Below the pieces are notes generated by a model. That model saw only the letters and a list, made by a program, of their open reading frames with translations, did not search any database and was not told the origin of the DNA. A program made the translations under genes and the position numbers. From a virus, in the IMG/VR virus record IMGVR_UViG_3300044732_001748, positions 1 to 26,281 of that record: a stretch of DNA of 26,281 bases; one strand, 5' to 3'. The first letter of the stretch is position 1. Each line of letters begins with the position of its first letter. This document shows, piece after piece, positions 1 to 26,159 of the stretch.

Positions 1-1
1 G

Positions 2-514: not shown

Positions 515-520
515 ACAAAT

Positions 521-1087: not shown

Positions 1088-1106
1088 ATAAAATAAATAA
1101 AATAAT

Positions 1107-1667
1107 ATGATACACGAAACAGGTTATTGGACTAAAGAAAACTCAACTAGTCACCACATACACAGTCCAAATTTAAGTAATTGGATTTCTGATTTTTTAA
1201 ATGATTATAAAGATCACCAAATTTACGATTTTGGTTGTGGATTGGGTAATTATCTAAATGATTTACATTTAAAAGGTTTTAAAAATTTAAAAGGTATTGA
1301 AGCTGACCCTATGAAAACTGATTATGATTTTGAAATATTAAAATTAAATTTGTCTGAACCCATTTTATTGGAGAAAAAGGGTATTGTAATATGTTTAGAA
1401 GTGGGGGAACATATACCCAAACAGTATCAAGAAACACTTTTAAATAATTTTATAAATAACTGCGATAAATATTTAATCCTATCTTGGGCGGTAAGAGGTC
1501 AAGGAGGATACGGACATTATAATGAATTAAATAATGATGAGATTCTTCCTCTAATTGAAAATTTAGGTTTTAAATTCCTTAAAGAATTAAGTGAGTCAGT
1601 AAGATTAGTCCCTGAAGATAAATGTTCTTATTTTAGAAATACTTTAATGGTTTTTGAAAAACAATAA
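1107..1667 (+). CDS. Class I SAM-dependent methyltransferase
   Basis: This 186-residue protein carries motif I as IYDFGCGLGNYL (39-50) and an acidic residue in KGIEADP (62-68) that would bind the SAM ribose. VICLEVGEHIP (94-104) matches the motif IV region of Methyltransf_11/23-type enzymes, in which an E.VEH-like string is common. The C-terminal half ends in a beta strand (NTLMVFEKQ), as this fold should. It is different from the upstream Methyltransf_24-type enzyme, so the cluster holds two distinct methyltransferases. The acceptor may be a sugar in the glycan made by the surrounding transferases; this is inferred from position only. The stop is followed after one base by the ATG of the next gene (TAATATG). 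Confidence 0.82.
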   Translation: MIHETGYWTKENSTSHHIHSPNLSNWISDFLNDYKDHQIYDFGCGLGNYLNDLHLKGFKNLKGIEADPMKTDYDFEILKLNLSEPILLEKKGIVICLEVGEHIPKQYQETLLNNFINNCDKYLILSWAVRGQGGYGHYNELNNDEILPLIENLGFKFLKELSESVRLVPEDKCSYFRNTLMVFEKQ

Positions 1668-1668
1668 T

Positions 1669-3180: not shown

Positions 3181-3183
3181 ATT

Positions 3184-3810
3184 ATGTCAAACGGAGCTTA
3201 TAAAATAACTGAAGATTTTGAAAAATCTTTATCTGAATATACAGGAGCCCCTTTTGTGGTTACGGTAGATAATCAATCTAACGCACTTTTTTTATCTTTA
3301 ATGTATGAGAAAGTTTCAGGGATTGAGATTGAAATACCGTCAAGAACTTACCCTTCGGTCCCTTGTGAGATAATTCATGCGGGTGCTAAAGTTAAATTTA
3401 AATCCATTGATGGTGAAACATTGAAAGGATCATACCAACTATACCCAACTAAAGTGTGGGATTCCGCACTTTCATTCACATATGGAATGTATAAACCAAA
3501 TACACATATGTGTGTTTCATTCACAGGACCTTATAAACATTTAAAACTATCTAAAGGTGGTGCAATTTTAACAGACGATTACGAAGCATATAAATGGTTT
3601 AAAAGGGCTAGGTATAGTGGTAGAAGAGAATGTTCATATCACGAAGATAATCTTGATATGTTAGGGTGGAACTTTTATATGATACCGGAATTATCCGCAA
3701 GAGGATTAATATTAATGAATCAATTTTATCGTAATGGTGAACCAATACATAATGAAGATATTGAATTACCGTATCCTGATTTATCTAAATTTGAAATATA
3801 TAAAAAATGA
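3184..3810 (+). CDS. Compact DegT/DnrJ/EryC1/StrS-type PLP aminotransferase
   Basis: This resembles the sugar aminotransferases that place an amino group on a 3- or 4-keto nucleotide sugar using PLP and glutamate. The visible pattern is YTGAPFVVTVDNQSNAL (19-35), matching the family's G..yav.v.sgt.AL. Then IPSRTYPSVP follows, VWDSALSF (91-98) for the Asp that contacts the PLP ring nitrogen, and SFTGPYKHLKLSKGG (112-126), in which Lys118 is the likely Schiff-base lysine. LGWNFYMIPELSARG corresponds to the gyNyRms..qAA helix. It has only 208 residues against roughly 370-400 in the family: the middle is shortened and the C-terminal small domain is absent. The stop overlaps the next start (ATGA at 3807-3810), so the short end is a settled gene boundary and not an obvious frameshift. 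It may need a partner or may have lost activity. Confidence 0.72.
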   Translation: MSNGAYKITEDFEKSLSEYTGAPFVVTVDNQSNALFLSLMYEKVSGIEIEIPSRTYPSVPCEIIHAGAKVKFKSIDGETLKGSYQLYPTKVWDSALSFTYGMYKPNTHMCVSFTGPYKHLKLSKGGAILTDDYEAYKWFKRARYSGRRECSYHEDNLDMLGWNFYMIPELSARGLILMNQFYRNGEPIHNEDIELPYPDLSKFEIYKK

Positions 3811-4640
3811 AAAAAATAATAAATTTTACCCCCACTGGAACCCAAACTACAAGGGGAAACTCAAAAGCTCCTTTATTACCTAACGAAATTATTGAAGAGG
3901 TTCACCAAGCATCTGAATTGGGTATAACTATGGTACACATACACGCAAGGGATCCAAAGGATTATTCGAATACATATAAAAAAGAAATTTATCAACCAAC
4001 TATTGAAGGGATTAGAAAATATTGTCCCGATTTAACTATTTGTGTTTCTTTAACCGGTAGATTATATCCCGAATTTGAAAAAAGATCCGAAGTTTTGGAG
4101 TTGTATCCTGATATGGGGTCATTAACGATGTCTTCAATTAATTTCCCAAAAGCATCGTCGGTGAATGAACCGGATATGATTTTAAAATTAATTGAAAAAA
4201 TGAATCAATACGGTGTGACTCCCGAAATAGAATGTTTTGATTCAGGAATGATAAATTATACAAATTATTTAATTAATAAGGGAATACTAAAAGGTCCTCA
4301 CTATATGAATATGATATTCGGTAATATCTATAATGGGCAAATAGACACATCTACCTTATCTTCCGTAGTAAATAATTTACCTAAAAACACTAAAGTTTGT
4401 TTTGGTGGTATTGGGAAGGATCAATTAAATTCAAATATTTTAGGATTAATTTATGCTGATGGAGTTAGAGTCGGTCTTGAGGATAATTTATATTTTAAAA
4501 ATAAAGAACTTACCACCAATATGGAATTATTAAAACGAGTTCATAATGTTATGGGAGATATGGGATTGGAGTTGTTAACCCCAAAAGAATTTAAAAATAT
4601 GGGATATGGAAACAAAAAACATAATGATAATAGGATATAG
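3807..4640 (+). CDS. BKACE family beta-keto acid cleavage enzyme (DUF849/Kce-like)
   Basis: BKACE enzymes are zinc-dependent TIM-barrel proteins that react a beta-keto acid with acetyl-CoA, giving acetoacetate and a new acyl-CoA. The N terminus has the family pattern (FTPTGTQTTRGNSKAPLLP, residues 7-25, then NEI). MVHIHARDP (42-50) supplies the two zinc-binding histidines, 44 and 46. VRVGLEDNLY near residue 220 supplies the third metal ligand, Glu, and the following Asp, and an LTPKEFKNMGYG tail follows, as in the family. Its length of about 277 residues is normal. The His that often precedes RVGLEDN is replaced by Gly, so the substrate class may be unusual. It overlaps the aminotransferase by 4 bp and the acyltransferase by 35 bp, a tight trio. 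No phage role for this family is known to me. Confidence 0.85.
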   Translation: MKKIINFTPTGTQTTRGNSKAPLLPNEIIEEVHQASELGITMVHIHARDPKDYSNTYKKEIYQPTIEGIRKYCPDLTICVSLTGRLYPEFEKRSEVLELYPDMGSLTMSSINFPKASSVNEPDMILKLIEKMNQYGVTPEIECFDSGMINYTNYLINKGILKGPHYMNMIFGNIYNGQIDTSTLSSVVNNLPKNTKVCFGGIGKDQLNSNILGLIYADGVRVGLEDNLYFKNKELTTNMELLKRVHNVMGDMGLELLTPKEFKNMGYGNKKHNDNRI

Positions 4641-5238
4641 TGATGCATACATTACTATGATATTTGACATATTTAAAAATCAAAAAGTAAAATTTAAAAT
4701 ATTGGACAATTTAAATTTATTTAATGATTTTAGAATAAAAAATCAAAATATTGATTACACGATTATTAATGATTTTGAAGAGTGTGATTATTATTTATAT
4801 GGTTCCGCCAAATCCTCAACAAGAAAAAAATTAATAGAAAACTTTAAAGTTGATAAAGATAAACTTTTTACCGTAAAAAGTGACAATTCTTTTATATCCG
4901 AAACAGTTAGTATTGGAAAAGGTTGTGTTGTAAATCCAATGTGTTCAATTGCGGGACAAACAACTATATCAGACAATGTATTTATAAATCGTTCAGTTTC
5001 CATTGGGCACCACACATATATTGGTGAAAACACATCGGTTAATCCCGGTGTAAATATTGCCGGTAATGTTAAAATTGGTAGTAATTGTCAAATAGGTATC
5101 GGGACAAACATAATTGATAATATAACTATAGGTGATAATGTTATTATTGGTGCGGGATCAGTTGTAACTAAAAGTATTCCTGATAATGTGATTGCCTATG
5201 GTAATCCGTGTAAAGTAATTAGAAAAAATGAAGAATAA
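4606..5238 (+). CDS. NeuD/PglD-type sugar O-/N-acyltransferase (left-handed beta-helix)
   Basis: Residues 1-95 form a small Rossmann-like N-terminal domain (KNIMIIGYSD). From about 100 to 190 there are consecutive hexapeptide repeats, for example VSIGKG, TTISDN, TYIGEN, VKIGSN, ITIGDN and VIIGAGS, which fold as a left-handed beta-helix. SVSIGHHTYIGE (130-141) holds the candidate catalytic base, His135 or His136, and NPGVNIAGNVKIG matches PglD/NeuD. The end, IAYGNPCKVIRK, is typical of the family. These trimeric enzymes use an acyl-CoA to acylate an amino sugar or sialic acid. Together with the aminotransferase two genes upstream it would make an N-acylated amino sugar. The start could be ATG 4606 or ATG 4624; 4606 is kept because it restores a full first beta strand. 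Confidence 0.85.
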   Translation: METKNIMIIGYSDAYITMIFDIFKNQKVKFKILDNLNLFNDFRIKNQNIDYTIINDFEECDYYLYGSAKSSTRKKLIENFKVDKDKLFTVKSDNSFISETVSIGKGCVVNPMCSIAGQTTISDNVFINRSVSIGHHTYIGENTSVNPGVNIAGNVKIGSNCQIGIGTNIIDNITIGDNVIIGAGSVVTKSIPDNVIAYGNPCKVIRKNEE

Positions 5239-5293
5239 AATTTTTATTATATAAATCAATAAACCGTCCCCACATTTGAATAAGAATTAACAT

Positions 5294-5866
5294 ATGTTAC
5301 ACATTATTACCCCATTATACCGATTTGATTTAATTGAAAAGGTATATAATTCAATATTATCCAATAACGATATAACTTGGCATATTTCCTACTCAAACAA
5401 ACGAGAATTACCTGATTTACCATTTTTAAAAAACAACAAACAAATTAAAATTTATGAGGTTGATTGTGAAGATAGTAATACCACATTAAAAAGAAATGCG
5501 ATGTTGGAAAACATAAAAGATGGATATTTTTGTTTTTTAGATGATGACACAGTTTTTCACGAAAATATGTATATGAAATACTTGGAGTGTTCGGAACATA
5601 ATTTTAGAGGTATGTTAGTTGGGGAACAATTGAATTTTAAAAATAAACTTCGTTTAATTGCCAGTAAACCCGTTTTTTGTCGTATTGACACCGGAAATGT
5701 ATTAAGTCACCATTCTTGTTTATCTGAATGTAAATGGCCTAAAGAACATACACCAGGTGTTAATCAAAAAGATTTCCTTTTTTGGGATTCTGTCTATAAT
5801 TATTACGGTAAGAAATGTGCTATTTGGAATCAACCAATTAGTTACTACAATAAACTAACATCATAA
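5294..5866 (+). CDS. Small family 2 glycosyltransferase
   Basis: A 190-residue single GT-A domain. It starts at once with the first strand (MLHIITPLYR). It carries TLKRNAML (64-71), the conserved stretch before the metal site, and YFCFLDDDTVFHENM (78-92) with the metal-binding DDD. The C-terminal third contains KDFLFWDSVYNYYG and a final ISYYN. It is shorter than most GT2 enzymes, which usually exceed 220 residues, but the core motifs are present. There are 55 bp upstream with an A/T-rich TATATAAAT, possibly a weak promoter, which suggests a partial break in the operon. Donor and acceptor are unknown. Its position at the end of the sugar cluster supports a part in the same glycan. Confidence 0.75.
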   Translation: MLHIITPLYRFDLIEKVYNSILSNNDITWHISYSNKRELPDLPFLKNNKQIKIYEVDCEDSNTTLKRNAMLENIKDGYFCFLDDDTVFHENMYMKYLECSEHNFRGMLVGEQLNFKNKLRLIASKPVFCRIDTGNVLSHHSCLSECKWPKEHTPGVNQKDFLFWDSVYNYYGKKCAIWNQPISYYNKLTS

Positions 5867-5870
5867 ATAA

Positions 5871-6563
5871 ATGGTAAGAAGAAAATCAGATCCGTCAATT
5901 AAATCGGAAACGCAGGACTCTAAACCCTTTTCAAAAAAGGATTTTATTAATTCAGTAATTAAACGAAAACAAAAAAATAAATTTTTATCCGAACATCAGG
6001 AAGATTATTATAACATTTTAAAAAATAATCAAATCACGGTTGCATCAGGACCGGCGGGTGTTGGTAAAAGTTTTATCGCAATGAAGGCGGCAGTGGATTT
6101 ATTAATGGATACAAACAATTCATATGAAAAAATCATTATTGTTAGACCCGCAGTTGAAGCGGAAGAAAAATTAGGTTCATTACCTGGAAACCTTGAAGAA
6201 AAATTGGATCCGTATATCTTCCCCTCTTATTATCTATTAAATAAAATTATCGGTAAAGAGGCTAGAGAAGAATTAAAGAAAGCCGAAATCATTGAGGTAT
6301 TTGCTTTGGCTTATATGAGAGGTATGAATATTGACAACTCAATATTAATTTTTGAGGAAGCTCAAAACTCAACACCTAACCAAATGAAATTGTTATTAAC
6401 AAGAATTGGTTACAAAGATAAAAAACAATCGGGACTATACGACGCAATCCATAAATTTAATGGTGTTCCAGATATTGGGGTTTATGATTTTAGAGACGCT
6501 AAAAATGTAAGAAACCCATTAATCAGTAAAATATTAGCTAAATACGATGAGAATAGGGATTGA
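5871..6563 (+). CDS. phoH: PhoH-like ATPase, motif-deleted variant
   Basis: PhoH proteins are RecA-like ATPases related to SF1 helicase cores and are common in T4-like and marine phages. Seen here: Walker A ASGPAGVGKSFIA (58-70), IIIVRPAVEAEEKLGSLPG (88-106), which is the diagnostic PhoH strand, FALAYMRGMN (144-153), and a Walker B-like LIFEEAQNSTPNQMKLLLTR (159-178). Two departures stand out. The usual DEAQN reads EEAQN. The stretch after LTRIG that normally carries the GD..Q motif is absent, the chain passing from RIGYKDK straight to KQSGLYDAI. The C-terminal part (DFRDAKNVRNPLISKIL) then resumes as normal. The N-terminal 40 residues are basic and probably disordered. Its 3' end overlaps the next gene by 17 bp. 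Confidence 0.88.
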   Translation: MVRRKSDPSIKSETQDSKPFSKKDFINSVIKRKQKNKFLSEHQEDYYNILKNNQITVASGPAGVGKSFIAMKAAVDLLMDTNNSYEKIIIVRPAVEAEEKLGSLPGNLEEKLDPYIFPSYYLLNKIIGKEAREELKKAEIIEVFALAYMRGMNIDNSILIFEEAQNSTPNQMKLLLTRIGYKDKKQSGLYDAIHKFNGVPDIGVYDFRDAKNVRNPLISKILAKYDENRD

Positions 6564-7209
6564 GATTAATGGTGTGTTAAGAGATACCATCGGTAAATTT
6601 AAACAACTTTATGAAAAACATTTAATAGAATCCAACGATGTTGAATCTACGGATAAAACATATGAGATAACTTTTTCGGGAGATACTGAAGATGTAATTG
6701 AGATGAATGAGGTATCTACCATAACACCATTTAAATATGAAATTTTAAGTGATGTTAGTTCTTTAGAGTTAAGTAACCACTTTTCTTTTCAATCAAGAGA
6801 AGAATTATATTCGTTTATGTATGAAGATTATACTATGGAATTGTTTGGTCACGCCCCATCAACAGAAACTATGAGTTTTAATTATCTTAACGACTTATAT
6901 CTTAATTTGAGAGATGAGAACGAATTGTTAATAGTATCTGATGAGATTGGAAGATCAAAACCATCTTCATTATTTTTCTTATCAAAATTCGGATGTTTGT
7001 TAGAACAAGTATTTTTTTACAGTAATCTAACAAAAAATTCAATGTGGAATAACATAGACATTTTACTTACATCAAACCCTGACTTATTATTAAATCATCC
7101 GTCAGATAAAATTGTTATAAAATTTAATACTGACTACAATAAACACATTAACTCAAAATATCAAATTTCATCATTATCAGAATTTGAAGAGTTATTAAAA
7201 ACTTTATAA
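6547..7209 (+). CDS. Degenerate HAD-like protein
   Basis: The N terminus MRIGIEINGVLRDTIGKF has the shape of a haloacid dehalogenase superfamily first strand and cap linker (hhhDhDGvLrDt), as in deoxyribonucleotidases. The later LLIVSDEIGRSKPSSLFFLSKFG and DILLTSNPDLLLNHP resemble the motif II/III and motif IV strands. The catalytic Asp pair is replaced by Glu6 and Asn8, so phosphatase activity is doubtful. A region of about 70 residues rich in Glu and Ser (about 30-115) is inserted where a cap domain would lie. It overlaps the PhoH gene by 17 bp, which suggests coupled translation. The fold call rests on the N-terminal motif and is tentative. It may be a binding or regulatory relic of a nucleotidase. 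Confidence 0.5.
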   Translation: MRIGIEINGVLRDTIGKFKQLYEKHLIESNDVESTDKTYEITFSGDTEDVIEMNEVSTITPFKYEILSDVSSLELSNHFSFQSREELYSFMYEDYTMELFGHAPSTETMSFNYLNDLYLNLRDENELLIVSDEIGRSKPSSLFFLSKFGCLLEQVFFYSNLTKNSMWNNIDILLTSNPDLLLNHPSDKIVIKFNTDYNKHINSKYQISSLSEFEELLKTL

Positions 7210-7212
7210 ATT

Positions 7213-7497
7213 ATGTTTAAAATCTTTGGAGAACATTATTATGTTGATTTGGATGCAATTGCCGATTACACCAAAATTGAAGATGAGGTGGTATCAGGAG
7301 ATACCGAAAACACTGAAAGTCAGGCAAAAATCCACATCGTTAAATTTGATATGGTTAAATTTATGTTAGAAATTTTAACGGATCCTCACGATGAAATTGA
7401 TGAAAAAATTGCAATGAGTTCGTCAAATGAAACATCGGTTCCTTTTAGAATCGCATTCAATACACTATTAACGAAAAAAATAATAAATAAATATTAA
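7213..7497 (+). CDS. Small acidic protein of unknown function
   Basis: I do not recognise this 94-residue protein. It opens with a short beta-like segment (MFKIFGEHYYVDLDAIADY), then an acidic linker rich in Glu, Ser and Thr. A strand-helix segment follows (KIHIVKFDMVKFMLEILTD), and a basic C terminus ends it (LLTKKIINKY). There is no signal peptide, membrane segment or cysteine. It sits three bases after the HAD-like gene and four bases before a GT-B transferase, so it is part of the plus-strand operon. Codon use matches its neighbours, which supports a real gene. Confidence 0.7.
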   Translation: MFKIFGEHYYVDLDAIADYTKIEDEVVSGDTENTESQAKIHIVKFDMVKFMLEILTDPHDEIDEKIAMSSSNETSVPFRIAFNTLLTKKIINKY

Positions 7498-7501
7498 TAC
7501 T

Positions 7502-8560
7502 ATGAACCAAGAACAAATATCAAAACTTGAGAAGTCAATCCAAAATATGAAGGACAAGTCGTCCCGAATTTATTTTTTGGTGCAAGACACAAAAGGTAAT
7601 GCTAGAGCGTCGGTTAGATACATTTATCAAATGGCTATGGCTCTTAAAAACAATGGGTTTAACTCAATTATTCTACACGAAAAACCTGAATACTTCGGTG
7701 TTTCAAGTTGGTTGGACGAAGAATATATGAAATTACCTCACAACGCAATTGAGGGAACAAATTTGGCAATCTCTCCAGAAGACATAATTATAATCCCTGA
7801 AATATACGGATTTGTTATGGATCAAATATCTAACTTACCTTGTGGTAAAGTAGTTTTGTGTCAAGCTTACGATCACATTTTTGAAACTTTAAATCCTGGT
7901 GATACTTGGACTAAATTAGGTTTTTATAAATGTATCACAACATCTGACAGACAAAAAGAAATGATTGAATCTATGATGAGAGGACTTTCAGTTGATGTTG
8001 TTTCTCCGTTTATTTCCGAAGTTTTTGAAAAACAAAAATTTCCACCTAAAACAATTATTTCAGTTCACTCAAGAGATCAAAGAGAAACTGTTAATATGAT
8101 TAAAGCGTTTTACGCTAAATTCCCACAATATAGATGGATTACTTTTAGAGATATGAGAGGTTTATCAGAGTTAGAATTTGCAAACGCAATGAAAGAAAGT
8201 TTTTGTTCAGTGTGGTTGGATTCTACAAGTGCCTTCGGAACATACCCTCTTGAATCATTTAAAATGGGTATTCCTGTAATTGGTTTAGTTCCAAATCTAC
8301 AACCTGAATGGATGAATGAGAACAATGGTATTTGGATTAACAACCAAAATATGATTGTTGATGTGGTTGCGGACTTTATCCAAAATTGGTTGGAGGATAA
8401 TATTAGTCCTGTGGTTTTTGAAGAAATGGAAAAAACTATGTCCGAGATTTCAGATAAATCTAAATTTGAATCTGATGTTGTTACTTTATTTAACAATATG
8501 ATAAACACTAGGTTGACTTCATTTGAAGAACAACTTTCTAAATTTGAAACAATTGAGTAA
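7502..8560 (+). CDS. GT-B fold glycosyltransferase (GT4-like)
   Basis: The 352-residue protein looks like a two-Rossmann-domain GT-B transferase. The N-terminal domain begins at IYFLVQDTKGNARASVRYIY (23-42), then AMALKNNGFNSIILHEKPEY, and EDIIIIPEIYG (93-103). The C-terminal donor domain has ISVHSRDQRETVNMIKAF (186-203), and FGTYPLESFKMGIPVIGLV (245-263). In the latter, the PLES..MG.PVI string is the place where GT4 enzymes bind the nucleotide sugar; Glu251 is the candidate ligand. The first 20 residues form a short charged helix. No signal or membrane segment is visible. The following GT2 gene starts one base after the stop (TAATATG), so the two are probably translated together and act on the same glycan. 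Confidence 0.78.
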   Translation: MNQEQISKLEKSIQNMKDKSSRIYFLVQDTKGNARASVRYIYQMAMALKNNGFNSIILHEKPEYFGVSSWLDEEYMKLPHNAIEGTNLAISPEDIIIIPEIYGFVMDQISNLPCGKVVLCQAYDHIFETLNPGDTWTKLGFYKCITTSDRQKEMIESMMRGLSVDVVSPFISEVFEKQKFPPKTIISVHSRDQRETVNMIKAFYAKFPQYRWITFRDMRGLSELEFANAMKESFCSVWLDSTSAFGTYPLESFKMGIPVIGLVPNLQPEWMNENNGIWINNQNMIVDVVADFIQNWLEDNISPVVFEEMEKTMSEISDKSKFESDVVTLFNNMINTRLTSFEEQLSKFETIE

Positions 8561-8561
8561 T

Positions 8562-9365
8562 ATGGAAAAAAATACAATTTCAGTTATTTTACCAATAAGA
8601 AGTGGTAAGACGGGGTTTTTTGAGGAATACCTTGAAAAATCAATAACTTCATTGAAGTTACAAAAAGAACAATTTGACGAAATCGTTATTGTTCATACTA
8701 ATGAAACATACTTAACCAACCTTTTACAATCTTATGATTTTGGTGAACTAAATGTTAAACTTGAGGAATGGACAAAAGAACCTAATTTCTCGGCACAGGT
8801 TAACCACGGGGTTAAAACGGCAACATCTAAATGGGTTACATTTTTTGAGTTTGATGATGAATACTCAAACATATGGGTTAAAAACTTTAAAGAATATTCA
8901 AACATCTATCCAAATGTGGATGCGTTCTTACCTATTGTTGTTGATGTTGACGAAAAAGGTTCGTTTTTAGGTTTCACTAATGAAGCAACATTTGCGGCAA
9001 ACTTCTCAAGTGAGATGGGAATTTTAACAAATGAAACTTTATTGTCATATCAAAATTTCCAATTATCAGGATTGGTAATTAAAAAAGAATCATTTGTTAA
9101 TTATGGGATGTTAAAGACATCGTTTAAATTAACTTTTGGATATGAGTTTCTTTTAAGAATGACACATAATTCGGTAAGATTTATGACAATCCCAAAAATT
9201 GGTTACAAACATACTAACCTACGAGAAGGATCTATTTTTTGGAATTATAAAAATGGAGATGGTAGATTAGAAGAAGATGAGGTTAGATTTTGGATTGACT
9301 CGGCGAAAAAAGAGTATATGTTCATTAATCAAAGGGAAATAAAATATGAACCTCAAGAAGTTTAA
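8562..9365 (+). CDS. Family 2 glycosyltransferase
   Basis: The frame is open back to a TTG at 8523 inside the previous gene, but ATG at 8562 sits one base after that gene's stop and starts directly in the first strand (NTISVILPIRSGK). The 267-residue protein is GT-A-like: DEIVIVHTNE (39-48), NHGVKTATSKWVTFFEFDDE (81-100) with the metal-binding DD, and a central GLVIKKESFVNYG. Then LTFGYEFLLRMTHN supplies the acceptor-side acidic residue, and IPKIGYKHTNLREGS follows. This is the last transferase before the late sigma gene, and the two overlap by one base (TAATG). Sugar specificity is unknown. Confidence 0.8.
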   Translation: MEKNTISVILPIRSGKTGFFEEYLEKSITSLKLQKEQFDEIVIVHTNETYLTNLLQSYDFGELNVKLEEWTKEPNFSAQVNHGVKTATSKWVTFFEFDDEYSNIWVKNFKEYSNIYPNVDAFLPIVVDVDEKGSFLGFTNEATFAANFSSEMGILTNETLLSYQNFQLSGLVIKKESFVNYGMLKTSFKLTFGYEFLLRMTHNSVRFMTIPKIGYKHTNLREGSIFWNYKNGDGRLEEDEVRFWIDSAKKEYMFINQREIKYEPQEV

Positions 9366-17361: not shown

Positions 17362-17802
17362 ATGAAAAAAAGAGTTATAAGATTTTTTAGAAGGTTAAAA
17401 TTAAGATTGTATTTATCGTTAAAGAAAAATTCGTTTGTCCCCACTTATGAGGAAGAGGAATCGTCGTATGAAAAAACTTGTTTTAAAATTTGTTTAAAAA
17501 CAATTAAACATCCCAACACTAAATTTATGATTGCCCCAATGTCAAATAAAAGATACATTGAGAATAAAGAAATGGGGTTATTCATAACAATGAATTACGG
17601 TAGAGTTGATTTAACTAATCACGTTTATCACTATAGTGTTAAATTAACCAAAAGAGATTGGGAACGTATTACACAAATTTTTGATGGTGAAACAGAAAAA
17701 AGAAGATTAAATTATGAGGAAAAAATTAATTCTCAAATTAAAAACTCCTTACATAGTGTTTTAGAAAGAATTTCTAATCTCGGTAATGATTCTATCAACT
17801 AA
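17362..17802 (+). CDS. Basic protein of unknown function
   Basis: I do not recognise this 146-residue protein. The N terminus is very basic (MKKRVIRFFRRLKLRLYLSL), then acidic (YEEEESSYEK). The middle (about 40-100) is beta-rich (FMIAPMSNKRYIENKEMGLF, VDLTNHVYHYSVKL) and the end is helical (WERITQIFDGETEKRRLNYE). It does not look like a secreted protein because the first 20 residues lack a hydrophobic core. Its last 42 bp overlap the end of the convergent minus-strand gene ending at 17761. It follows the HNH gene by 52 bp of A/T-rich DNA. Confidence 0.65.
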   Translation: MKKRVIRFFRRLKLRLYLSLKKNSFVPTYEEEESSYEKTCFKICLKTIKHPNTKFMIAPMSNKRYIENKEMGLFITMNYGRVDLTNHVYHYSVKLTKRDWERITQIFDGETEKRRLNYEEKINSQIKNSLHSVLERISNLGNDSIN

Positions 17803-18681
17803 TATATCAATAGATTCTTTTCTTGGTTTGTATGATGTCATAACAGGTTTTTGACCTTTACCTGTTTGAGTATCTTTTTTCTCGGCTTTACGTTTTTGTT
17901 GACAAGCGGATTTTTTTGATGAATCACTCATTTTACCCGCAACACTCGCAGCACGACATTTTGGGTAAGAACCTTTATCGGAATCACTTCTACCACAAGG
18001 GGGATGTTTTCCGTCAACTTTTTTACATATATCAACCCAAGGACCTTTTGGTTGTTTAGAACCTTTTGGTTTTTTCTTTGTTCCAAACCAAACCGCCAAA
18101 TCTTCTTGGATAGAATGGACATCGTGTTCATATGCGTCGTAAGTTCCTTCAGAGTTTTTTTCCCAAACACCTACAACTTTTTTAATATTATTCTTCATTG
18201 TTTTTTGTTTTTTTTGATGATTAAATTCAGTATCAACAAATTCGGTAAATGGTTCTAAATGATATTTTTTCCATTTTTTTAAACCAAGTTCAATCGGTCC
18301 GGTATATTCCCCTGATGATATTGAGGTTGAGCTTTCTTTAATTGGAACTACTTTCTTATTCTTACCGGGAGTTGGGTTTATATTATTACCATCTTCATCA
18401 CTAAATGTTGATTGTGGGTGGTTTTTGATATAATTAGTAACTTTCTTTGCTTTAGATTCTATTTTTTTAATTTGTTTTTTTGTTTCGTCCATTTTCCCGT
18501 CATAACTATCAAATTCTAACATAGGACTATCATATTTAGAAACGGGTATCGTAAATGGAGCCGTATTACTATCCTTGAACTTTCTAATTCCCAACGATAA
18601 TGGTGCGATATATGATCCACGACTACCCCCACTATCTGAAGTGGCTTCCTTTAAAACTTTTTTTATGATATCATTTAACAT
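17761..18681 (-). CDS. Duplicated-domain protein with gp21-type cleavage site and basic Cys tail
   Basis: ATG at 18681 is preferred over the TTG at 18714, which lies in the promoter-like region. The 306-residue protein begins MLNDIIKKVLKEATSDSG, where VLKE|ATS resembles the processing site of the capsid protein here (INE|ATS). Two units repeat: GSYIAPLSLGIRKF...APFT (22-43) and GEYTGPIELGLKKW...EPFT (124-145), each preceded by KE-S/T-S and followed by a Lys-rich helix. The C-terminal domain (about 203-270) has GPWVDICKK, CGRSDSDKGSYPKCR and a KRKAEKK tail, like a short Cys/Gly/Lys-rich domain of unknown function I recall from phages and large viruses, possibly DUF5872. It ends in a helix, ILVDRIITEI. 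A head-packaged or DNA-associated protein is plausible; function is unproven. Confidence 0.65.
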   Translation of the reverse strand: MLNDIIKKVLKEATSDSGGSRGSYIAPLSLGIRKFKDSNTAPFTIPVSKYDSPMLEFDSYDGKMDETKKQIKKIESKAKKVTNYIKNHPQSTFSDEDGNNINPTPGKNKKVVPIKESSTSISSGEYTGPIELGLKKWKKYHLEPFTEFVDTEFNHQKKQKTMKNNIKKVVGVWEKNSEGTYDAYEHDVHSIQEDLAVWFGTKKKPKGSKQPKGPWVDICKKVDGKHPPCGRSDSDKGSYPKCRAASVAGKMSDSSKKSACQQKRKAEKKDTQTGKGQKPVMTSYKPRKESIDILVDRIITEIRNSF

Positions 18682-18702
18682 ATTAACAAACTTATCTATT
18701 AT

Positions 18703-18711
18703 TATAAATAT
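18703..18711. promoter_or_regulatory. Promoter-like TATAAATAT/ATATTTATA between divergent genes
   Basis: This element lies in the 44-bp gap between divergent starts. For the minus gene it reads ATATTTATA, 21 nt before ATG 18681, the same sense as other copies here. For the plus gene at 18726 it reads TATAAATA, the T4 late consensus, 14-15 nt upstream. It might serve either or both. Confidence 0.45.
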
Positions 18712-18725
18712 CAAACAATACTAAA

Positions 18726-18938
18726 ATGGAAGAAGAACAGACAGAAAACTATGGTAATTTATTTGGAACCATAAATCTTTTAACGGAGGATCACTTGGAT
18801 ATGATCTTATCATCAATGGATAAAGAACACTCAATTTACTATTTGGTTGAGGCAGTTAAATCCGCACACAGTAGAGGTGCGTTTACAATAGGTGAATCCG
18901 AAATAATTTCAAAATCAATTAGAGTATTGTCTAAATAA
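18726..18938 (+). CDS. Small protein of unknown function
   Basis: A 70-residue acidic, helical protein (EDHLDMILSSMDKEHSIYYL, then VEAVKSAHSRGAFTIGESEI, ending KSIRVLSK). No family is recognised. The pattern of two or three helices separated by a Gly-containing turn suggests a compact helical bundle. It is divergent from the duplicated-domain gene and ends two bases before the end of the convergent secreted-protein gene, leaving almost no non-coding DNA. Coding character (sensible amino-acid use, clean ATG) supports it, but with only 70 residues the call is moderate. Confidence 0.6.
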   Translation: MEEEQTENYGNLFGTINLLTEDHLDMILSSMDKEHSIYYLVEAVKSAHSRGAFTIGESEIISKSIRVLSK

Positions 18939-18940
18939 AA

Positions 18941-20500
18941 TCATTTCATCACCTTCATTATTGAACCATCGTCATAGATTTCAAAATACATTCCATTAGG
19001 TGAAAACGAACTTACCTCTTGTCCTATTGTATTAACAATTTTAACTACTTCTTTTTGATTTAAGGTGTTGGTAATTGAAACATTATTAAAATATGTTCTT
19101 ACACCGTTAAAATCAGTTTGAGATAATCTATAATAATTAGTCACACTTCTATCATATGTTTTATGAATATATGAATATGACAATTCTTGTTGTGAGTTAC
19201 CGGCAGCATTTATATTTGAAATGTCCAACCAAAATTCTCCGTCAATAGAATATTCTAAAGTAAAATAATCATTATCCCTTTCAGATGCAGTCACCCAATA
19301 TAAAAAATTATCACCATTCTTTTTCATACCATTAAAAGATATTAACTCAATTGGTAAAGAAGAAATCCTATTTACTGTGACATCCCTACAATTTGCATCG
19401 TCCACACAATAACCATTTGTTTTTATATGAACATAGTAAGTGTTATTTGATGGTGCAGTAAATGAAAGTGGGTTTGTTCCATACCCAATAACAGTACCCG
19501 AAGGTGAACCAACAGTTACCGTAACCCAATCTGTTGATAAACTTGATTGAACATTATATATGGTACCAGTAACACCTGTATTCCAAGTACTATATTCATC
19601 AGTAAATTGACCATTCCCACTTAAACAGGTGGATGAAACTGTGGTCGGAGATGTTGGCATATTTAACACTGACCATGGAGATGTTGCAAAACAAGGTCCA
19701 ATAACGGGACAATTTAATGTGAATGTTACATTACCACCTATTGTTGATTCGGGATCACCCATAATATAATATGTTAGTCCGGCAGTTAACGGAATATTCA
19801 CATTAGAATTCCCAATATTTCCTGAAGATATATCATCAATACAAGTCCATCCTGTCCCCGTACATCCCCCCGATGATAATTTGTAAAACCAATCAATATA
19901 ACCAAAACTTGTTGGTTGGGATATTCTATAGTTTCCTGAAATAGTTGGGGTGAATTGGAATATTCTTTCTTGTCCTGGTGTAGTGAATCCACAACTAGTT
20001 GATGGTGGATTATACAATCCGTTTCCCGATGAAATGGTGAATGTTGTTGAGACACCACAAGAAAGTGTTGTTATACTTGAGCAGGGGTTAAATGGTGTCA
20101 CACAACCCGATATATAAAATCTTACACGAGTTGCAACACTTAATACCGCACAGGACCAATTTGTTACTAATATTGAGTAGGTACCACTTGTTGTGCAAGT
20201 CCAAGTAATTCTTGATTGTGATCCACAATTATCATCACCTGTTACCAATACAGTACCTCCTGTCCCTGTTGAATATAATCTTAAATATGTGTCTGCGGTT
20301 GAATACCCACAGGTTTCAAATACATAAGTACATCCCGCAGTTGCAACAAAATTAAACGCCCTTCTTCCGGAATTATAAGAAGTGGTTAATTGTGCGGTTG
20401 TAGAAGGTGTAATTGGGACATTAGTTGTTACAGTATTACAATATTGTGAATGAAGATTAAAACTTAAAACAGTTAATAGAATAAATAAAAAATTATGCAT
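18941..20500 (-). CDS. Secreted multidomain protein with type IX secretion C-terminal sorting domain
   Basis: Residues 1-18 are a Sec signal peptide (MHNFLFILLTVLSFNLHS, likely cut before Gln19). Two beta-sandwich units follow, about 35-130 and 140-265, with pre-peptidase-like features: TYLRLYSTG, LVTGDDNCG, GTYSILV, then GNYRISQP, TAGLTYYIMGDPES. An Ig-like unit occupies about 270-380. Residues 382-484 are the LPIELISFNG...SERDNDYFTLEYSIDG module that stands before sorting domains in Bacteroidota proteins. The last 35 residues (VVKIVNTIGQEV...FEIYDDGSIMKVMK) look like a Por/type A sorting signal. Known family behaviour predicts Sec export, outer-membrane passage by the type IX system and cleavage at the surface. 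It is rich in Cys, Thr and Ser. No enzyme motif is seen; an adhesin or surface-coat role is possible. Confidence 0.8.
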   Translation of the reverse strand: MHNFLFILLTVLSFNLHSQYCNTVTTNVPITPSTTAQLTTSYNSGRRAFNFVATAGCTYVFETCGYSTADTYLRLYSTGTGGTVLVTGDDNCGSQSRITWTCTTSGTYSILVTNWSCAVLSVATRVRFYISGCVTPFNPCSSITTLSCGVSTTFTISSGNGLYNPPSTSCGFTTPGQERIFQFTPTISGNYRISQPTSFGYIDWFYKLSSGGCTGTGWTCIDDISSGNIGNSNVNIPLTAGLTYYIMGDPESTIGGNVTFTLNCPVIGPCFATSPWSVLNMPTSPTTVSSTCLSGNGQFTDEYSTWNTGVTGTIYNVQSSLSTDWVTVTVGSPSGTVIGYGTNPLSFTAPSNNTYYVHIKTNGYCVDDANCRDVTVNRISSLPIELISFNGMKKNGDNFLYWVTASERDNDYFTLEYSIDGEFWLDISNINAAGNSQQELSYSYIHKTYDRSVTNYYRLSQTDFNGVRTYFNNVSITNTLNQKEVVKIVNTIGQEVSSFSPNGMYFEIYDDGSIMKVMK

Positions 20501-20609
20501 GACTTTATATTTTTTGTATGTTAATAAAAAAATATAAGCCTCATTTGAAGAATCGTTTAAGAAACCCCCAACTTCCTTGGGCGGGTCGAGATCTTACACC
20601 TATAAATAT
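20501..20609 (-). ncRNA. Candidate structured 5' leader upstream of the 519-residue secreted protein
   Basis: On the minus strand this 109-nt stretch starts with an ATATTTATA element (20601-20609). Its first half is much richer in G and C than its surroundings. Possible helices are CCCAA-ggaag-TTGGG (20567-20581) and GTTT-ctt-AAAC, with an outer pairing of AAGA.TCG to CGA.TCTT around them, giving a three-way junction shape. It is not a tRNA. It may be a leader that controls the gene, or a separate small RNA. The structure was folded by eye only. Confidence 0.3.
20601..20609 (-). promoter_or_regulatory. Promoter-like ATATTTATA element
   Basis: Same element, in the same sense, as those before other virion-region genes, but 100 nt from the start at 20500. 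If it is a promoter the transcript would have a long leader holding the hairpins described for 20501-20609. Confidence 0.35.
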
Positions 20610-20639
20610 AATAATATAGTTTAAAAAAATTATTTGAGA

Positions 20640-20671
20640 CAAAAAAAAAGGGGTAAATTACCATTTACCCT
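20640..20671 (-). terminator. Intrinsic terminator after the 323-residue secreted protein gene
   Basis: GGGTAAAT (20651-20658) and ATTTACCC (20663-20670) pair around a TACC loop. On the minus strand the hairpin is followed by a run of nine T (A run at 20641-20649). It lies 29 nt past the stop at 20700 and separates the two secreted-protein genes. Confidence 0.85.
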
Positions 20672-20699
20672 CTCACAATTATAATTCGTGGATTTATTT

Positions 20700-21671
20700 T
20701 TAATATTGGTAGGTTTTAATTACCTCCCCATTTTCATAATAAATTACAACCCATCCTTTATGATATTGGTTAACAATCCTACCCATTAAATCAACAATGT
20801 TAATAACATTTGTCTTTACCCTATTATCAATTGAAATTACTGAATAAATTTCGAATTTCCCATCAAAATCAAATTGTTTTAATCTGTAATACGATATACC
20901 AAATCTCACATCATTATCGGTAAGTGAATAATTAACGGTTTGACTACTATTACCTGACGCATTAACCGAACCAACTAAATCCCAATCAATACCGTCAAAA
21001 CTTTTCTCAATTAAAAAATAATCCGAATTGAGTTCAGATGAGGTTGACCAATATAAATGATTAGTAGTTGATATGGCATTACCTTTAAAATATAATAATT
21101 CAACAGGTAGTGCGGTTTCGTTTGTTAATTTGATATCATCAATTCTAAATTGAATTGATGAGGATGTTTGTTTCCACCTTAATCTAAGGTTTGATACATT
21201 GTTCACCGATGATGGTAATACGATATTAGAGATTAACCTCCAAGATGAGGTTCCTGTTCCTGTTGGTTGTGTTGGAATTGTAATCGGTAAGTATTTAGTA
21301 CCGTCAACACTATACTCCAATACTAATTCAGACATAGTAGATGCGTTTGTACTTTTATATGCCCCAAATGATAATTTAAAATTATATCTATTAATCGTTG
21401 AAATTGACGATATCTGAAAAGTGGTTCCGACAGTTGGAGTTAAAAATACATTCCTACTTCCGCTGGCTCCGACATATCCCGTTGATGGTGTTGTTGTTCT
21501 AGTGTCGGCAGTCCCACCAAAAGTTAAACTACTATTTTGAAATGGGTTACTTGTTACTAAAATTGTTGCTGGAGATACTGCGGTACCAATATTCTCACTA
21601 AATAATACATTTTGACTGAACCCTATAAAAGTGGTTAATACAAAAACAAATGTTAATAATAAATTTCTCAT
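20700..21671 (-). CDS. Secreted protein with type IX secretion C-terminal sorting domain
   Basis: Residues 1-19 are a signal peptide (MRNLLLTFVFVLTTFIGFSQ, cut near the FSQ). The N-terminal domain (about 20-185) is beta-rich: FSENIGTAV, SGSRNVFLTPTVGTTFQISS, KLSFGAYKS, ELVLEYSVDGTKYLPI and a closing FRIDDIKLTN. This is a lectin-like choice-of-anchor pattern seen in many flavobacterial extracellular proteins. Residues 188-287 are the LPVELLYFKG...SDYFLIEKSFDG module, and YYRLKQFDFDG ends it. The last 36 residues (NVINIVDLMGRIVN...VIYYENGEVIKTYQY) resemble a type A sorting signal. It shares the last two modules, but not the N-terminal domain, with the next secreted protein. It lies directly behind the capsid gene, with its own promoter-like element and terminators on both sides. 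It probably acts at the host surface. Confidence 0.8.
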   Translation of the reverse strand: MRNLLLTFVFVLTTFIGFSQNVLFSENIGTAVSPATILVTSNPFQNSSLTFGGTADTRTTTPSTGYVGASGSRNVFLTPTVGTTFQISSISTINRYNFKLSFGAYKSTNASTMSELVLEYSVDGTKYLPITIPTQPTGTGTSSWRLISNIVLPSSVNNVSNLRLRWKQTSSSIQFRIDDIKLTNETALPVELLYFKGNAISTTNHLYWSTSSELNSDYFLIEKSFDGIDWDLVGSVNASGNSSQTVNYSLTDNDVRFGISYYRLKQFDFDGKFEIYSVISIDNRVKTNVINIVDLMGRIVNQYHKGWVVIYYENGEVIKTYQY

Positions 21672-21701: not shown

Positions 21702-21730
21702 AAAAAAAAGGAGACAATTACTTGTCTCCT
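21702..21730 (-). terminator. Intrinsic terminator after the major capsid gene
   Basis: AGGAGACAA (21709-21717) and TTGTCTCCT (21722-21730) form a perfect 9-bp stem with a TTAC loop. On the minus strand it is followed by an eight-base T run. It lies 24 nt beyond the capsid stop codon. Confidence 0.9.
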
Positions 21731-21754
21731 TTGAGGGTTATTTTAAGTTGTTGA

Positions 21755-23599
21755 TTATCTCAATTCTCTTAAATCAAATGTACGAACTCCGTCAACAGTG
21801 ATACGAGCGTAGAAACGGTTGTTAACCATTTTTTTAGCGTATCTTGTCATAATACCTTTGATAGGTGTGAAGTTGAATGGGTTGTACATTGTAGGTGTCA
21901 ATTGTAATGGTACGTAAGGTGCGTAAATGTAACCTGTGTCTAACAATGATGTTCCTTTGTGTCCAATCAAAATTGTATTTGGTGGGAAGTAAGGATCACG
22001 ATACACTTGGTAACGTCCTTGTAAAGTACCAACTCTTTCGATACCCATATTATACTGATCTTGCTCAGGAGATGCGTTAGATACGTGGAAGTATTCTAAA
22101 TCATCAAAGATTGCAGAAATTTCAGAAGAAACTACGATCCAGTTAGCTCCACCTCTCAAAGTAGATTTGTGGATTTGTGCTGACAATTGGTTAATTGCAG
22201 TAATCAAAGTTTGATTCCAATCTTTTTGAGTGTAAGATGTTGTTTGTGCAATTCTTCTCCATCCGTTGTAATCCCAACGTAAGTTCCAAGCCGCACCTTT
22301 TCTCAAGTCACGTAAAATTTCACGGTCGATTTCAGCCGCCACTTGTTCTGACAATAAAGCCGTTAATTCAGCTTCAGCATCAATATTGTGGAATGCAGCA
22401 ACGTCTTGTGCCATTTCAGGAGACCATTGAGCTCTTAATTTTCTTTCAGATACAGAAACTGTTACAGATTCCAAATCAAAAGAAACCTCACCAATTTGGT
22501 CTTCAAACTCCATATTTTTGTAAGTTCTATATACCGCAGTAAATGAAGTACCTGATGCTCCTGAAAAAATTGTAGTACCTGTGTAACCATCTAAAGATGA
22601 TGAGTCACAATCAGCACATACAGGACAAGAAAGATCAACTTCTATGAACATATAACCATCTGCATCACAAATATCGTAGTAAGAACCTCCATTACCTGTA
22701 GTAGGGAAAGATGTTTGTGCTTGACTACCGTATTGAACAATACCTTTACCATATTGTTGAGTAACAACTCTAAACAATAATGGAATAAAGTTATTTGCGG
22801 AATCTTTAATCACATTACAAGGTGTTGTAGATGCCGACAAAGATGATGTTGCAATGATTTTAAGATCTGATAAGAATGTTTCTGAATCCATTTCATTACC
22901 ATCAGGTCCGATTAATTTACCAGCTCCTGAATTTCTGAATCCTGAAATTTTTAAAATCAATTTTCTTTGGTTACCCGCAGGTGCCGCAGAATTAACCAAT
23001 GTTCCATTTGACCACACTTGGATTGCAGTATCTGCAGTAACCGCAGTCCATGCTCCTTTAGAGTAATCAAACAATCCTGGAGGATCTAAACCTGCTTCAC
23101 CACCTTCATAAAATAAATCATAAAGATTTTTAGCGTAAGCGTTAGGTCCTGTGTAACCCGCATTAACTTGTGCTTGAATGTCGTCATCAGGTGAATTTCC
23201 TGGAGCTCCTACTGGTGAATAATGTTGTCCACCTGTAACGTTATCACCAAAACCTGTTTGGTAACCTTGAATTTTAGGTACGAAGTAGAACAATTTACCG
23301 ATAGGTAAGTTCATTGCTTGTACAGAAACGATATCGTTAGCCAATAATTTAGAGAAAACTCTTCTTACGATTGGGAAAACAACAGTTTCAAATGCTCCGT
23401 TAGAACCTTCTGAAGTTGCTTCGTTAATCAAGAAAGACGCTTGATTCTCATACAATTGAGCTACGTTTTCTTTTAGATGACCTTTAAGTCCATCAAGGAA
23501 CCCTAATTTGTCCCATTTGTTAATAGTATCTTCTTTGATAACTTTAAGGTGTTTCAACCCGATGTTACCAACAAGACCTGATTCTAATAATGCTCCCAT
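21755..23599 (-). CDS. 23: Major capsid protein (T4 gp23-like)
   Basis: This 614-residue protein is the HK97-fold head subunit of T4-like phages. The N-terminal leader contains LKENVAQLYENQASFLINEA (42-61), and cleavage by gp21 is expected after Glu60, as for T4 gp23 after Glu65. The mature part opens FETVVFPIVRRVFSKLLAND, a gp23 signature. The C-terminal half has RKLRAQWSPEMAQDVAAFHN, DAEAELTALLSEQVAAEIDR, GANWIVVSSEISAIFDDL, VGTLQGRYQVYRDPYFPPNT and a final TRYAKKMVNNRFYARI, all matching gp23 homologues. The length is above T4 gp23 (521). Part of the extra sequence is a loop with CPVCADC near residue 328, perhaps a metal-binding or surface insertion. It follows gp22 by 34 bp, without a clear promoter, and has its own strong terminator. 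Confidence 0.95.
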   Translation of the reverse strand: MGALLESGLVGNIGLKHLKVIKEDTINKWDKLGFLDGLKGHLKENVAQLYENQASFLINEATSEGSNGAFETVVFPIVRRVFSKLLANDIVSVQAMNLPIGKLFYFVPKIQGYQTGFGDNVTGGQHYSPVGAPGNSPDDDIQAQVNAGYTGPNAYAKNLYDLFYEGGEAGLDPPGLFDYSKGAWTAVTADTAIQVWSNGTLVNSAAPAGNQRKLILKISGFRNSGAGKLIGPDGNEMDSETFLSDLKIIATSSLSASTTPCNVIKDSANNFIPLLFRVVTQQYGKGIVQYGSQAQTSFPTTGNGGSYYDICDADGYMFIEVDLSCPVCADCDSSSLDGYTGTTIFSGASGTSFTAVYRTYKNMEFEDQIGEVSFDLESVTVSVSERKLRAQWSPEMAQDVAAFHNIDAEAELTALLSEQVAAEIDREILRDLRKGAAWNLRWDYNGWRRIAQTTSYTQKDWNQTLITAINQLSAQIHKSTLRGGANWIVVSSEISAIFDDLEYFHVSNASPEQDQYNMGIERVGTLQGRYQVYRDPYFPPNTILIGHKGTSLLDTGYIYAPYVPLQLTPTMYNPFNFTPIKGIMTRYAKKMVNNRFYARITVDGVRTFDLRELR

Positions 23600-25427: not shown

Positions 25428-26159
25428 TTATTTATCCAAATAATCGGATAAACGCTTCATTAAGTCAAGTGATTTGTTACCACTACCACCAATATTTCTT
25501 TCTACCGCAATTTTTTTATCTTCCTCAAGGTTTTCGTCAAATTTCATTCTGTCGTTTTTATCCATAAAAAGATACGCCCCAGGTGTGGATGGTGAAGAAA
25601 CCAAGTCAAAACAAATTAATTCAAAATCGTCTTGTACTTCGTTTTGTTCCCCAACTTTTTTAAGTGAACCAACCCCACGAGAAGAAATACCTAAAGTTAC
25701 TCCTTGTCTTAAATAGTTTGCCGCCAAATCACCTTTAGTGGAACATATACCACTTTCGTGAAAACCTGGACTTGTTAATAATTTTAACTTTCCTAATAAT
25801 ACTGGACCGTCCCACCATATTTCAGTAATCATATGTGAAACTCTATCTAAATCTATTAATGATGATTCGGGGTGATTAAGTTCTGATAACGCAGTTCCCT
25901 TCTCAATCATTTTTTTATAATTATCGGCTTCACGCTTTAATACTTTTTCAGGATATAATCTACCATTTCTATTTGGGGTATTGTATTTTTGTAATACCGC
26001 ATAGAACTCAAATGGTTTTGAGTGATCCAAAGAATTTTTGGATTCTTTAATTAATTCTGAATTATATTTATCTGAAGGATCAATATACCCGGCATCGTAT
26101 TCGATAAGAATCCCCCTCGTGTCTGTATCATTTGGACCTAATATTCTGTTTTGGCTCAT
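25428..26159 (-). CDS. 21: Prohead core protease (gp21-like)
   Basis: The 243-residue protein is a serine protease of the herpesvirus-assemblin/T4 gp21 type that matures the prohead. YAVLQKYNTPNRNGRLYP (53-70) is the family's N-terminal pattern. LSELNHPESSLIDLDRVSHM (91-110) holds the catalytic His96. GVTLGISSRGVGSL (153-166) holds the nucleophile, likely Ser160. LICFDLVSSPSTPGAYL (181-197) supplies the third residue, probably Asp185. The length is near T4 gp21 (212). Its targets here should include gp22, the gp23 leader after Glu60, and possibly other proteins with [I/L/V]-x-E|A sites. An ATATTTATA element stands 15 nt before the ATG and overlaps the stop of the upstream gene. Confidence 0.93.
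   Translation of the reverse strand: MSQNRILGPNDTDTRGILIEYDAGYIDPSDKYNSELIKESKNSLDHSKPFEFYAVLQKYNTPNRNGRLYPEKVLKREADNYKKMIEKGTALSELNHPESSLIDLDRVSHMITEIWWDGPVLLGKLKLLTSPGFHESGICSTKGDLAANYLRQGVTLGISSRGVGSLKKVGEQNEVQDDFELICFDLVSSPSTPGAYLFMDKNDRMKFDENLEEDKKIAVERNIGGSGNKSLDLMKRLSDYLDK

Follow-up and report, generated by a model that had tools for sequence, protein, structure and literature searches.

The linear IMG/VR virus record IMGVR_UViG_3300044732_001748, analysed here over its whole length of 26,281 bases (hereafter the window), carries directly behind a T4-type major capsid gene two genes, P1 and P2, whose products share a signal-peptide-like start, a fibronectin-like module, and a short C-terminal tail. 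We hypothesize, with a probability of roughly 0.7, that the phage is T4-like and infects Bacteroidota, that P1 and P2 are accessory genes, expressed late, which occupy a variable slot downstream of its capsid gene, and that their tail is a reduced sorting signal of the type IX secretion system (T9SS) which would bring them, as secreted cargo, to the cell surface. The tails most likely route this cargo through the T9SS of the host and out of the infected cell. The genes and the parts of their products are as follows:

21755..23599, minus strand: T4-type major capsid protein, Gp23 (Pfam Gp23, 246.6 bits; phrog_138, E 3.1e-66)
20700..21671, minus strand: P2 gene, 323 aa
21114..21614, minus strand: P2 jelly-roll domain, adhesin/carbohydrate-binding-like by structure comparison, aa 20-186
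20817..21110, minus strand: P2 fibronectin-like LPVELLYF...YYRLKQFDFDG module, aa 188-285
20703..20816, minus strand: P2 tail, putative short type IX sorting signal, aa 286-323 (predicted strands 289-294, 306-312, 317-322)
18941..20500, minus strand: P1 gene, 519 aa
20105..20437, minus strand: P1 first beta-sandwich, aa 22-132 (PliG-like and prepeptidase-C-like folds)
19709..20095, minus strand: P1 second beta-sandwich, collagen-binding-domain-like, aa 136-264 (2o8o, Z 11.3, rmsd 2.8, 102 residues)
19061..19357, minus strand: P1 fibronectin-like LPxEL...YYRLSQTDFNG module, aa 382-480
18944..19060, minus strand: P1 tail, putative short type IX sorting signal, aa 481-519 (predicted strands 485-490, 504-509, 514-518)

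An earlier note on this DNA had described two open reading frames (ORFs) with signal peptides, a shared module, and a related C-terminal stretch, placed directly behind a T4-type capsid gene, and each of these elements was recovered. The N-termini of P1 and P2, as read from the translations, are signal-peptide-like stretches; the shared module of about 100 residues follows the pattern LP[VI]EL...W.T[AS]SE..[ND][DS]YF.[LI]E.S.DG...YYRL.Q.DF[ND]G; and module and tail of the two proteins align with 51 of 144 residues identical (E 5e-23 for this pair), the tails themselves being related stretches of about 39 residues. P1 is ordered as signal peptide, two small beta-sandwiches, a middle part, the fibronectin-like module, and the short tail, and P2 as signal peptide, jelly-roll domain, module, and tail. 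The Gp23 match identifies the capsid gene, and a prohead protease gene lies further on.

The tail recurs widely behind the same module. A profile of module plus tail retrieved 149 confirmed stretches on viral contigs and at least 580 in bacterial genomes, 80 of each being kept. Measured from the YYRLxQxD motif to the end of the protein, the span is 50-59 residues in 99 of 103 viral rows, or in 79 of 83 when only unique ends are counted, those outside this class coming from contigs L010, L012, L014, and L162; of 95 closed cellular rows, 79 span 80-111 residues, mostly with a YPNP-type start, 15 are short, and one is masked. These rows include repeats and were retrieved through the module, and so are uninformative on proteins that lack it. 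The short tail thus occupies the place that a full C-terminal domain (CTD) takes in cells, behind the same module.

The short tails roughly follow the pattern V[VI]K[IV][IV]N[LI][LM]GQEV[DN]....KG[IL][VI][IF]E[IV]YDDG[ST]..K over about 39 residues, and of 55 non-redundant viral proteins that have such a tail and a closed 5' end, 53 show a signal-peptide-like start in a crude hydropathy test. Alignment A3 comprises 56 rows: both tails of the window, plus 54 viral tails out of a non-redundant 61 (L006, L009, L011, L013, L143, L157, and L171, some of them deviant, were left out). In it the glycine of motif B is conserved in 55 tails and that of motif D in all 56, and motif E keeps its basic residue in 54; all three are present in both P1 and P2. 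When hidden Markov models (HMMs) of the tails alone were compared, positions 5-36 of the short tail aligned with positions 30-79 of the full CTD, across motifs B and D (score 18.3, P 6.7e-4), and none of 200 column shuffles reached that score, the maximum being 15.0. At the level of profiles, the link to full CTDs is weak, yet it lies above every shuffle.

The minus-strand order, from right to left, is prohead protease, an acidic ORF, the capsid gene, P2, P1, and ORF317, and the further genes around the slot that holds P2 and P1 are these:

25428..26159, minus strand: prohead core protease (PF03420, 81.6 bits)
18726..18938, plus strand: 70-aa ORF, also a slot boundary in many relatives
17761..18714, minus strand: ORF317, conserved, far-side boundary of the cargo slot (likely ATG at 18681, by reading)

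The pair for which the earlier note would have related phages surveyed is present in them: contigs L002, L003, and L004 repeat the order capsid-P2-P1, and L001 has P1 with another gene in the place of P2. At a larger scale, short-tail genes with varying N-terminal parts lie behind the capsid gene in 31 related loci (four repeats dropped), a sample found through the tail or the module and hence biased. They precede ORF317 wherever the contig reaches it, and in 29 of the loci they are on the strand of the capsid gene (the broken gene of L103 among them), those of L139 and L142 being convergent. The capsid proteins of these phages are 73-96% identical to that of the window over the aligned part, the 96% values referring to a 159-residue piece. 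Since both the capsid-P2-P1 order and, widely, the tail recur, the pattern of the locus is more than chance.

A survey started from the capsid (best 80 of at least 599 relatives kept) revealed short-tail genes in the slot of 12 of the 49 relatives whose contigs extend 3 kb or more past the capsid gene; of these 12, four (L222, L290, L292, and L293) had already been found by the tail, and one more such locus, L227, is among the 31 relatives with less than 3 kb there. All matches of this survey were found in 386 kb downstream, with none in 364 kb upstream. The slot is an accessory position and its cargo is dispensable; the idea that it is always filled by a gene of this kind was rejected on the count of 12 in 49. 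Among 58 of the proteins, Pfam domains (E<=0.001) are GEVED, MAM, and P-domain (three each), S8, fn3, and CUB (two each), and five others (one each). In two further loci, large secreted proteins with a different end occupy the same slot (L282:8478-10730, ending in ..EKGFYVIHIHHSDGSVEIIKKVIY, and L300:12073-14394), and these ends are possibly a further variant of the short tail.

Some relatives carry proteases of one type with either kind of ending by the capsid gene:

L097:1340-3385, phage subtilisin-type protease with full CTD
L098:684-2732, phage subtilisin-type protease with full CTD
L118:1400-2827, phage subtilisin-type protease with short tail
L160:2081-3220, phage subtilisin-type protease with short tail

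The subtilisin-type slot proteins of L097 and L098 exceed the curated cut-off (23 bits) of TIGR04183, the type A CTD family, with 37.7 and 40.6 bits, as do their 274- and 275-residue neighbours (28.8 and 37.7 bits); a 198-aa slot neighbour in L098 has no TIGR04183 match. The capsid of L097 is 82% identical to that of the window over 384 residues and that of the L098 contig 78% over its full length, the latter contig having been recovered from the capsid search as well (as L290). The proteases of L118 and L160 are orthologues of the slot subtilisin (203 of 383 and 152 of 262 residues identical, respectively) and end in short tails that have no TIGR04183 match. With TIGR04183 ends and short ends on orthologous subtilisins, cargo of the same slot therefore carries a full CTD in some phages and the short ending in others. 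In the 'phages' collection the L098 subtilisin matches 48 records, mostly via the protease part among the 20 of them listed.

The same tail is found in a lineage of cellular genomes. In the family of a metagenome-assembled genome (MAG) assigned to Fluviicola (NCBI: Crocinitomicaceae), 87 of 150 genomes carry it on their genes (E<=1e-6), with up to 14 short tails per genome (for example G496, G004, G001, and G545), and SprA is found in 149 of the 150; the frequency of the tail by rank is 126 of 299 genomes in the order, 14 of 247 in the class, and 1 of 395 in the phylum, the last being the centre genome itself. The first-look screening was tighter in the larger samples (the phylum search scored 18 candidates per genome), and because of this, and of the unstated spread of the samples within each group, the phylum figure may be too low. 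Two control orders that were tried proved to be one and the same four genomes, with no matches. By eye, the MAG contigs with a short tail have chromosomal-looking neighbours, and they gave no matches to the viral loci; one tail, in L186, ends a protein that by eye resembles leucine-rich repeats and lacks the module. On these ordinary-looking surroundings and the 87 genomes, the view that the short tail is exclusively viral was rejected. Since the tail occurs on genes of this family, the likeliest host of the window's phage would be in the Fluviicola lineage. A phrog_138 search in 12 MAGs gave no match, and none in the controls either. Short tails of the Fluviicola family (L179-L208) sometimes stand in tandem arrays, and in L213 a short-tail protein lies, by eye, beside one that ends in a full CTD.

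The domains ahead of the module are mostly of binding folds. The jelly-roll of P2 (aa 20-186) matches reelin (6a48, Z 14.0, rmsd 2.8, 139 residues), a cleaved adhesin domain of the gingipain Kgp (3km5, Z 12.6, rmsd 2.6, 136 residues), and a porphyran-binding carbohydrate-binding module (8xmz, Z 11.9, rmsd 2.7, 130 residues), with meprin chains also among the matches; the first beta-sandwich of P1 matches 4dzg (Z 11.2, rmsd 2.5, 102 residues) and 5sv5 (Z 10.6, rmsd 2.7, 98 residues). The AlphaFold2 models have a mean pLDDT of 75 (P2) and 71 (P1), and each tail contains three strands (a strand count only; block mean pLDDT 76-93 in P2 and 73-79 in P1). No T9SS CTD is among the Foldseek/VIA matches listed for the two models, a comparison that hardly probes the tail. 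Direct family searches with P1 and P2 returned only a sub-threshold Reelin repeat in P2, which leaves the claim with no family match to build on. P1, P2, and the L112 protein match four records apiece in the 'phages' collection, all from uncultured huge phages. Four huge phage records (462-642 kb) also carry the module, including L011 (LR745206), where an ORF interrupted by a frame change ends in a short tail like that of P1, and L014 (LR756500), which passes the TIGR04183 cut-off with 32.7 bits.

The ratio of nonsynonymous to synonymous substitution rates (dN/dS) is 0.12-0.14 for P1 against L001-L004, and 0.23-0.43 for P2 against L002-L004, with 0.27-0.41 for more distant pairs. Codons 1-187 of P2 (21111-21671) are identical to those of L002 and L004 and the tail differs at 26-27% of its residues; because the first part is identical while module and tail differ, P2 appears to be a mosaic made by recombination within the gene. 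A tree of the modules (174 rows, L010 and L094 left out) is poorly resolved, with 18 of 171 inner branches starred; short-tail and full-tail modules cluster in it (16 changes), and the direction of transfer is not given by the tree.

The gap from the capsid gene to P2 is 83 nt and that from P2 to P1 199 nt, and the following elements lie around them:

21707..21732, minus strand: terminator-like hairpin with a T run between the capsid gene and P2
21686..21693, minus strand: promoter-like element TATTTATA, 22 nt before P2
20651..20670, minus strand: terminator-like hairpin with a T run behind P2
20601..20608, minus strand: promoter-like element TATTTATA, 108 nt before P1
14182, 15679, 18710, 20608, 21693, 26182: coding-strand positions of TATTTATA before genes

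Phage-style terminators had been noted earlier, and they are present as these hairpins behind the capsid gene and P2, the scanned region holding six terminator-like sites against 3.4 expected. As for the promoter-like element noted with them, sigma-70-like sites are not commoner in the scanned region than in shuffles (39 against 34.1, sd 5.7), and TATTTATA precedes both genes. This motif, which was picked post hoc after being seen, occurs 10 times in the window, six times before genes of the same strand: the spacing is 20-30 nt for P2, the protease, ORF489, ORF199, and ORF317 (counted to its likely ATG), and 108 nt for P1. The late-promoter motif of T4 is TATAAATA, from which TATTTATA differs; TATTTATA is a candidate late promoter, and its placement, though a post hoc observation, suggests that P1 and P2 are late genes, each with its own start.

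We propose that P1 and P2 would first be exported by the Sec pathway, after which the short tail would act as a reduced type IX signal, retaining motifs B, D, and E without the first strands. A PorV-like shuttle could then take the tailed protein through SprA, such that the adhesin-like cargo would end up on the infected cell's outer membrane or beyond it, and relatives would deliver a subtilisin-type protease along the same route. More weakly, the binding folds might cover or occupy surface structures late in infection, limiting adsorption or altering cell contact; that the cargo coats the surface is read from fold alone, because the domains of P1 and P2 are mostly binding folds. A bolder version, to which we would give somewhat less than even odds, is that in a group of T4-like phages the position behind the capsid holds an exchangeable surface-display cassette, with the tail as a lineage-specific address common to phage and host, by which the phage repaints the host surface late in infection and keeps rivals off. 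The cargo of such a cassette would comprise a jelly-roll adhesin, a beta-sandwich binder, and a subtilisin, all given the short type IX tail.

Several results weigh against the reading of the tail as a type IX signal. The search against the type IX sorting families, named as a check in the earlier note, gave no NCBIfam model at all for P1 or P2 (E<=10), TIGR04183 included; this was negative by the criterion set beforehand, and we therefore looked into the nature of the tail. TIGR04183 was likewise matched by none of the 56 tails alone (E<=10) and by none of 58 related proteins (E<=0.01). Of the canonical residues, GxY is kept in 8 of the 56 A3 tails (in P1, not in P2) and the tyrosine of motif B in three; the tail-only HMM-HMM comparison has a probability of just 27%; and a home-made full-CTD profile is weak on single tails (P1 E 0.005, P2 E 0.016, among 64 sequences). 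The tails of L118 and L160 fall outside the subfamily of P1 and P2 (15.4 and -1.5 bits against the A3 profile for L160 and L118, respectively), and because they form a side branch the argument from orthologous cargo is somewhat weakened. In 37 of the 49 relatives with enough sequence (3 kb or more) past the capsid gene, neither a short-tail nor a full-CTD gene was detected. In the host order SprA is found in 292 of 299 genomes, and because it is near-universal there its co-occurrence with the short tail says little; three of 126 short-tail genomes (G584, G619, and G753) have no SprA match, although MAGs may be incomplete. The empty NCBIfam result (E<=10) bears on the type B family TIGR04131 only if the library includes it. 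Pfam gave no sorting family for P1 or P2 and is no useful test, because L014, over the TIGR04183 cut-off, also received no Por_Secre_tail row. The earlier claim of T9SS cargo accordingly stands in an altered form: the proteins look exported and bear a CTD-like tail, most likely of the T9SS, with a short form in place of one that TIGR04183 recognizes.

The missing TIGR04183 match, and the loss of GxY and the motif-B tyrosine from most tails, would also be expected if the tail were a decayed remnant of a captured host CTD, with the proteins reaching the periplasm only and acting there or doing nothing. The strong conservation of the short form in A3, the low dN/dS, the occurrence of the same form on cellular proteins across more than half of the Fluviicola-family genomes, and its attachment to differing N-terminal parts all argue against decay, which we regard as quite unlikely. 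Departure of the tail from the type A sequence could instead mean that it is a surface signal served by another shuttle (for example one like PorP/SprF) or by an outer-membrane route particular to the lineage rather than by PorV; type B signals of Flavobacterium johnsoniae do use PorP/SprF shuttles, according to the available part of PMC12618676. This we consider unlikely, if less so than decay, as the tail aligns with motifs B and D of type A, orthologous cargo of one slot bears either a full CTD of that type or a short tail, and short CTDs already published were modelled on PorV (PMC11969387, available part).

The reading of P1 and P2 as T9SS cargo also has to be set against the proximity of both genes to the capsid gene, from which they might be virion parts (a head decoration or Ig-like fibres) with an incidental resemblance to signal peptides and CTDs. 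Ig-like domains are common on phage virions, and the TATTTATA element of P1 and P2 is the same as that before the protease gene; yet signal-peptide-like N-termini, present in nearly all relatives tested, would divert the proteins from assembly in the cytoplasm, most of the relatives with sufficient sequence have no such gene, and the slot of relatives also houses subtilisin-type proteins that end in a TIGR04183 CTD, so that this explanation is very improbable. Finally, the presence of the same tail on host proteins might suggest host DNA misassembled into a phage contig, to which we attach next to no weight, because the capsid-P2-P1 arrangement recurs in three other contigs and other cargo takes the same place in further ones.

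Away from the slot, positions 1-9365 of the window hold a plus-strand cluster that by eye resembles sugar-biosynthesis and glycosyltransferase genes, beside PhoH (5871-6563, PF02562); this cluster may also bear on surface sugars.

Among known systems, the gingipain Kgp is a type IX cargo, and its cleaved adhesin domains share the fold of P2 aa 20-186 (3m1h, Z 12.3, and 4itc, Z 12.2, besides 3km5, Z 12.6); with 12-15% identity, and with reelin and meprin chains scoring as well or better, this is a likeness of fold only. Like type A CTDs (TIGR04183), the tails of P1 and P2 are C-terminal, follow the same LPxEL fibronectin-like module in proteins with a signal peptide, and keep the glycines of motifs B and D and a basic motif E. 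Type A CTDs are seven-strand Ig-like sandwiches of about 70-100 residues, whereas these tails have 38-39 residues and three predicted strands, and phage tails of this kind have no TIGR04183 match and usually lack GxY and the motif-B tyrosine.

A counterpart is found in Prevotella intermedia, for which the available sections of PMC11969387 report 48 predicted short CTDs of 43-55 residues with a Gly/Gly/basic pattern and a reduced distance between motifs B and D, whose three predicted strands correspond to strands 3, 6, and 7 of long CTDs and for which there is experimental support for cleavage and for glycosylation of the cargo; P. intermedia is there the only species of the phylum reported with both long and short CTDs. 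Likened by description, the phage tails agree in length class, three-strand prediction, short B-D distance, and Gly/Gly/basic pattern; they differ in lineage and in that their motif-B tyrosine and GxY are mostly replaced. Work on P. gingivalis traced the secretion signal down to the last 22 residues of a CTD (PMC5445135, available part).

The earlier note knew of no described phage system of this type, but two precede it, again by the available parts of the papers. Cryophage, a circular phage of 76 kb (Bellas et al. 2020, PMC7468147), has three genes whose products, namely an endoglucanase, a GH39 protein, and a PA14 protein, bear canonical type A sorting domains of the T9SS, and for these superinfection exclusion or competition was proposed; one cluster of crAss-like gut phages encodes T9SS sorting-domain proteins upstream of the head genes (PMC6949934). 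With Cryophage the window shares variable phage genes bearing a signal for the host T9SS and a proposed surface or secreted cargo, and it differs in its T4-type phage, its short signal missed by TIGR04183, and the position of its slot immediately downstream of the capsid gene. With the crAss-like phages it shares sorting-domain genes close to head genes; those are different phages with a BACON-domain context, and no short form is described in the sections available. The available part of PMC11205867 contains nothing on phage-encoded T9SS cargo, and the open-access literature yielded no paper describing short CTDs in either phages or the Fluviicola lineage, in searches that did not include Fluviicola as a term.

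Phage-encoded T9SS cargo is thus already known; what appears new is the short signal, the fact that a host lineage has it too, and the slot. If the reading is correct, annotation by TIGR04183 overlooks one class of type IX cargo, both in uncultured phages and in a lineage of hosts, phages use an outer-membrane secretion machine of the host late in infection, remodelling of the cell surface by Bacteroidota phages becomes directly testable, and the tail offers a new clue to the hosts of uncultured phages. Short CTDs, reported for P. intermedia only (PMC11969387, in its available part), would then extend to another lineage, the CTD-like tails making the Fluviicola family the second.

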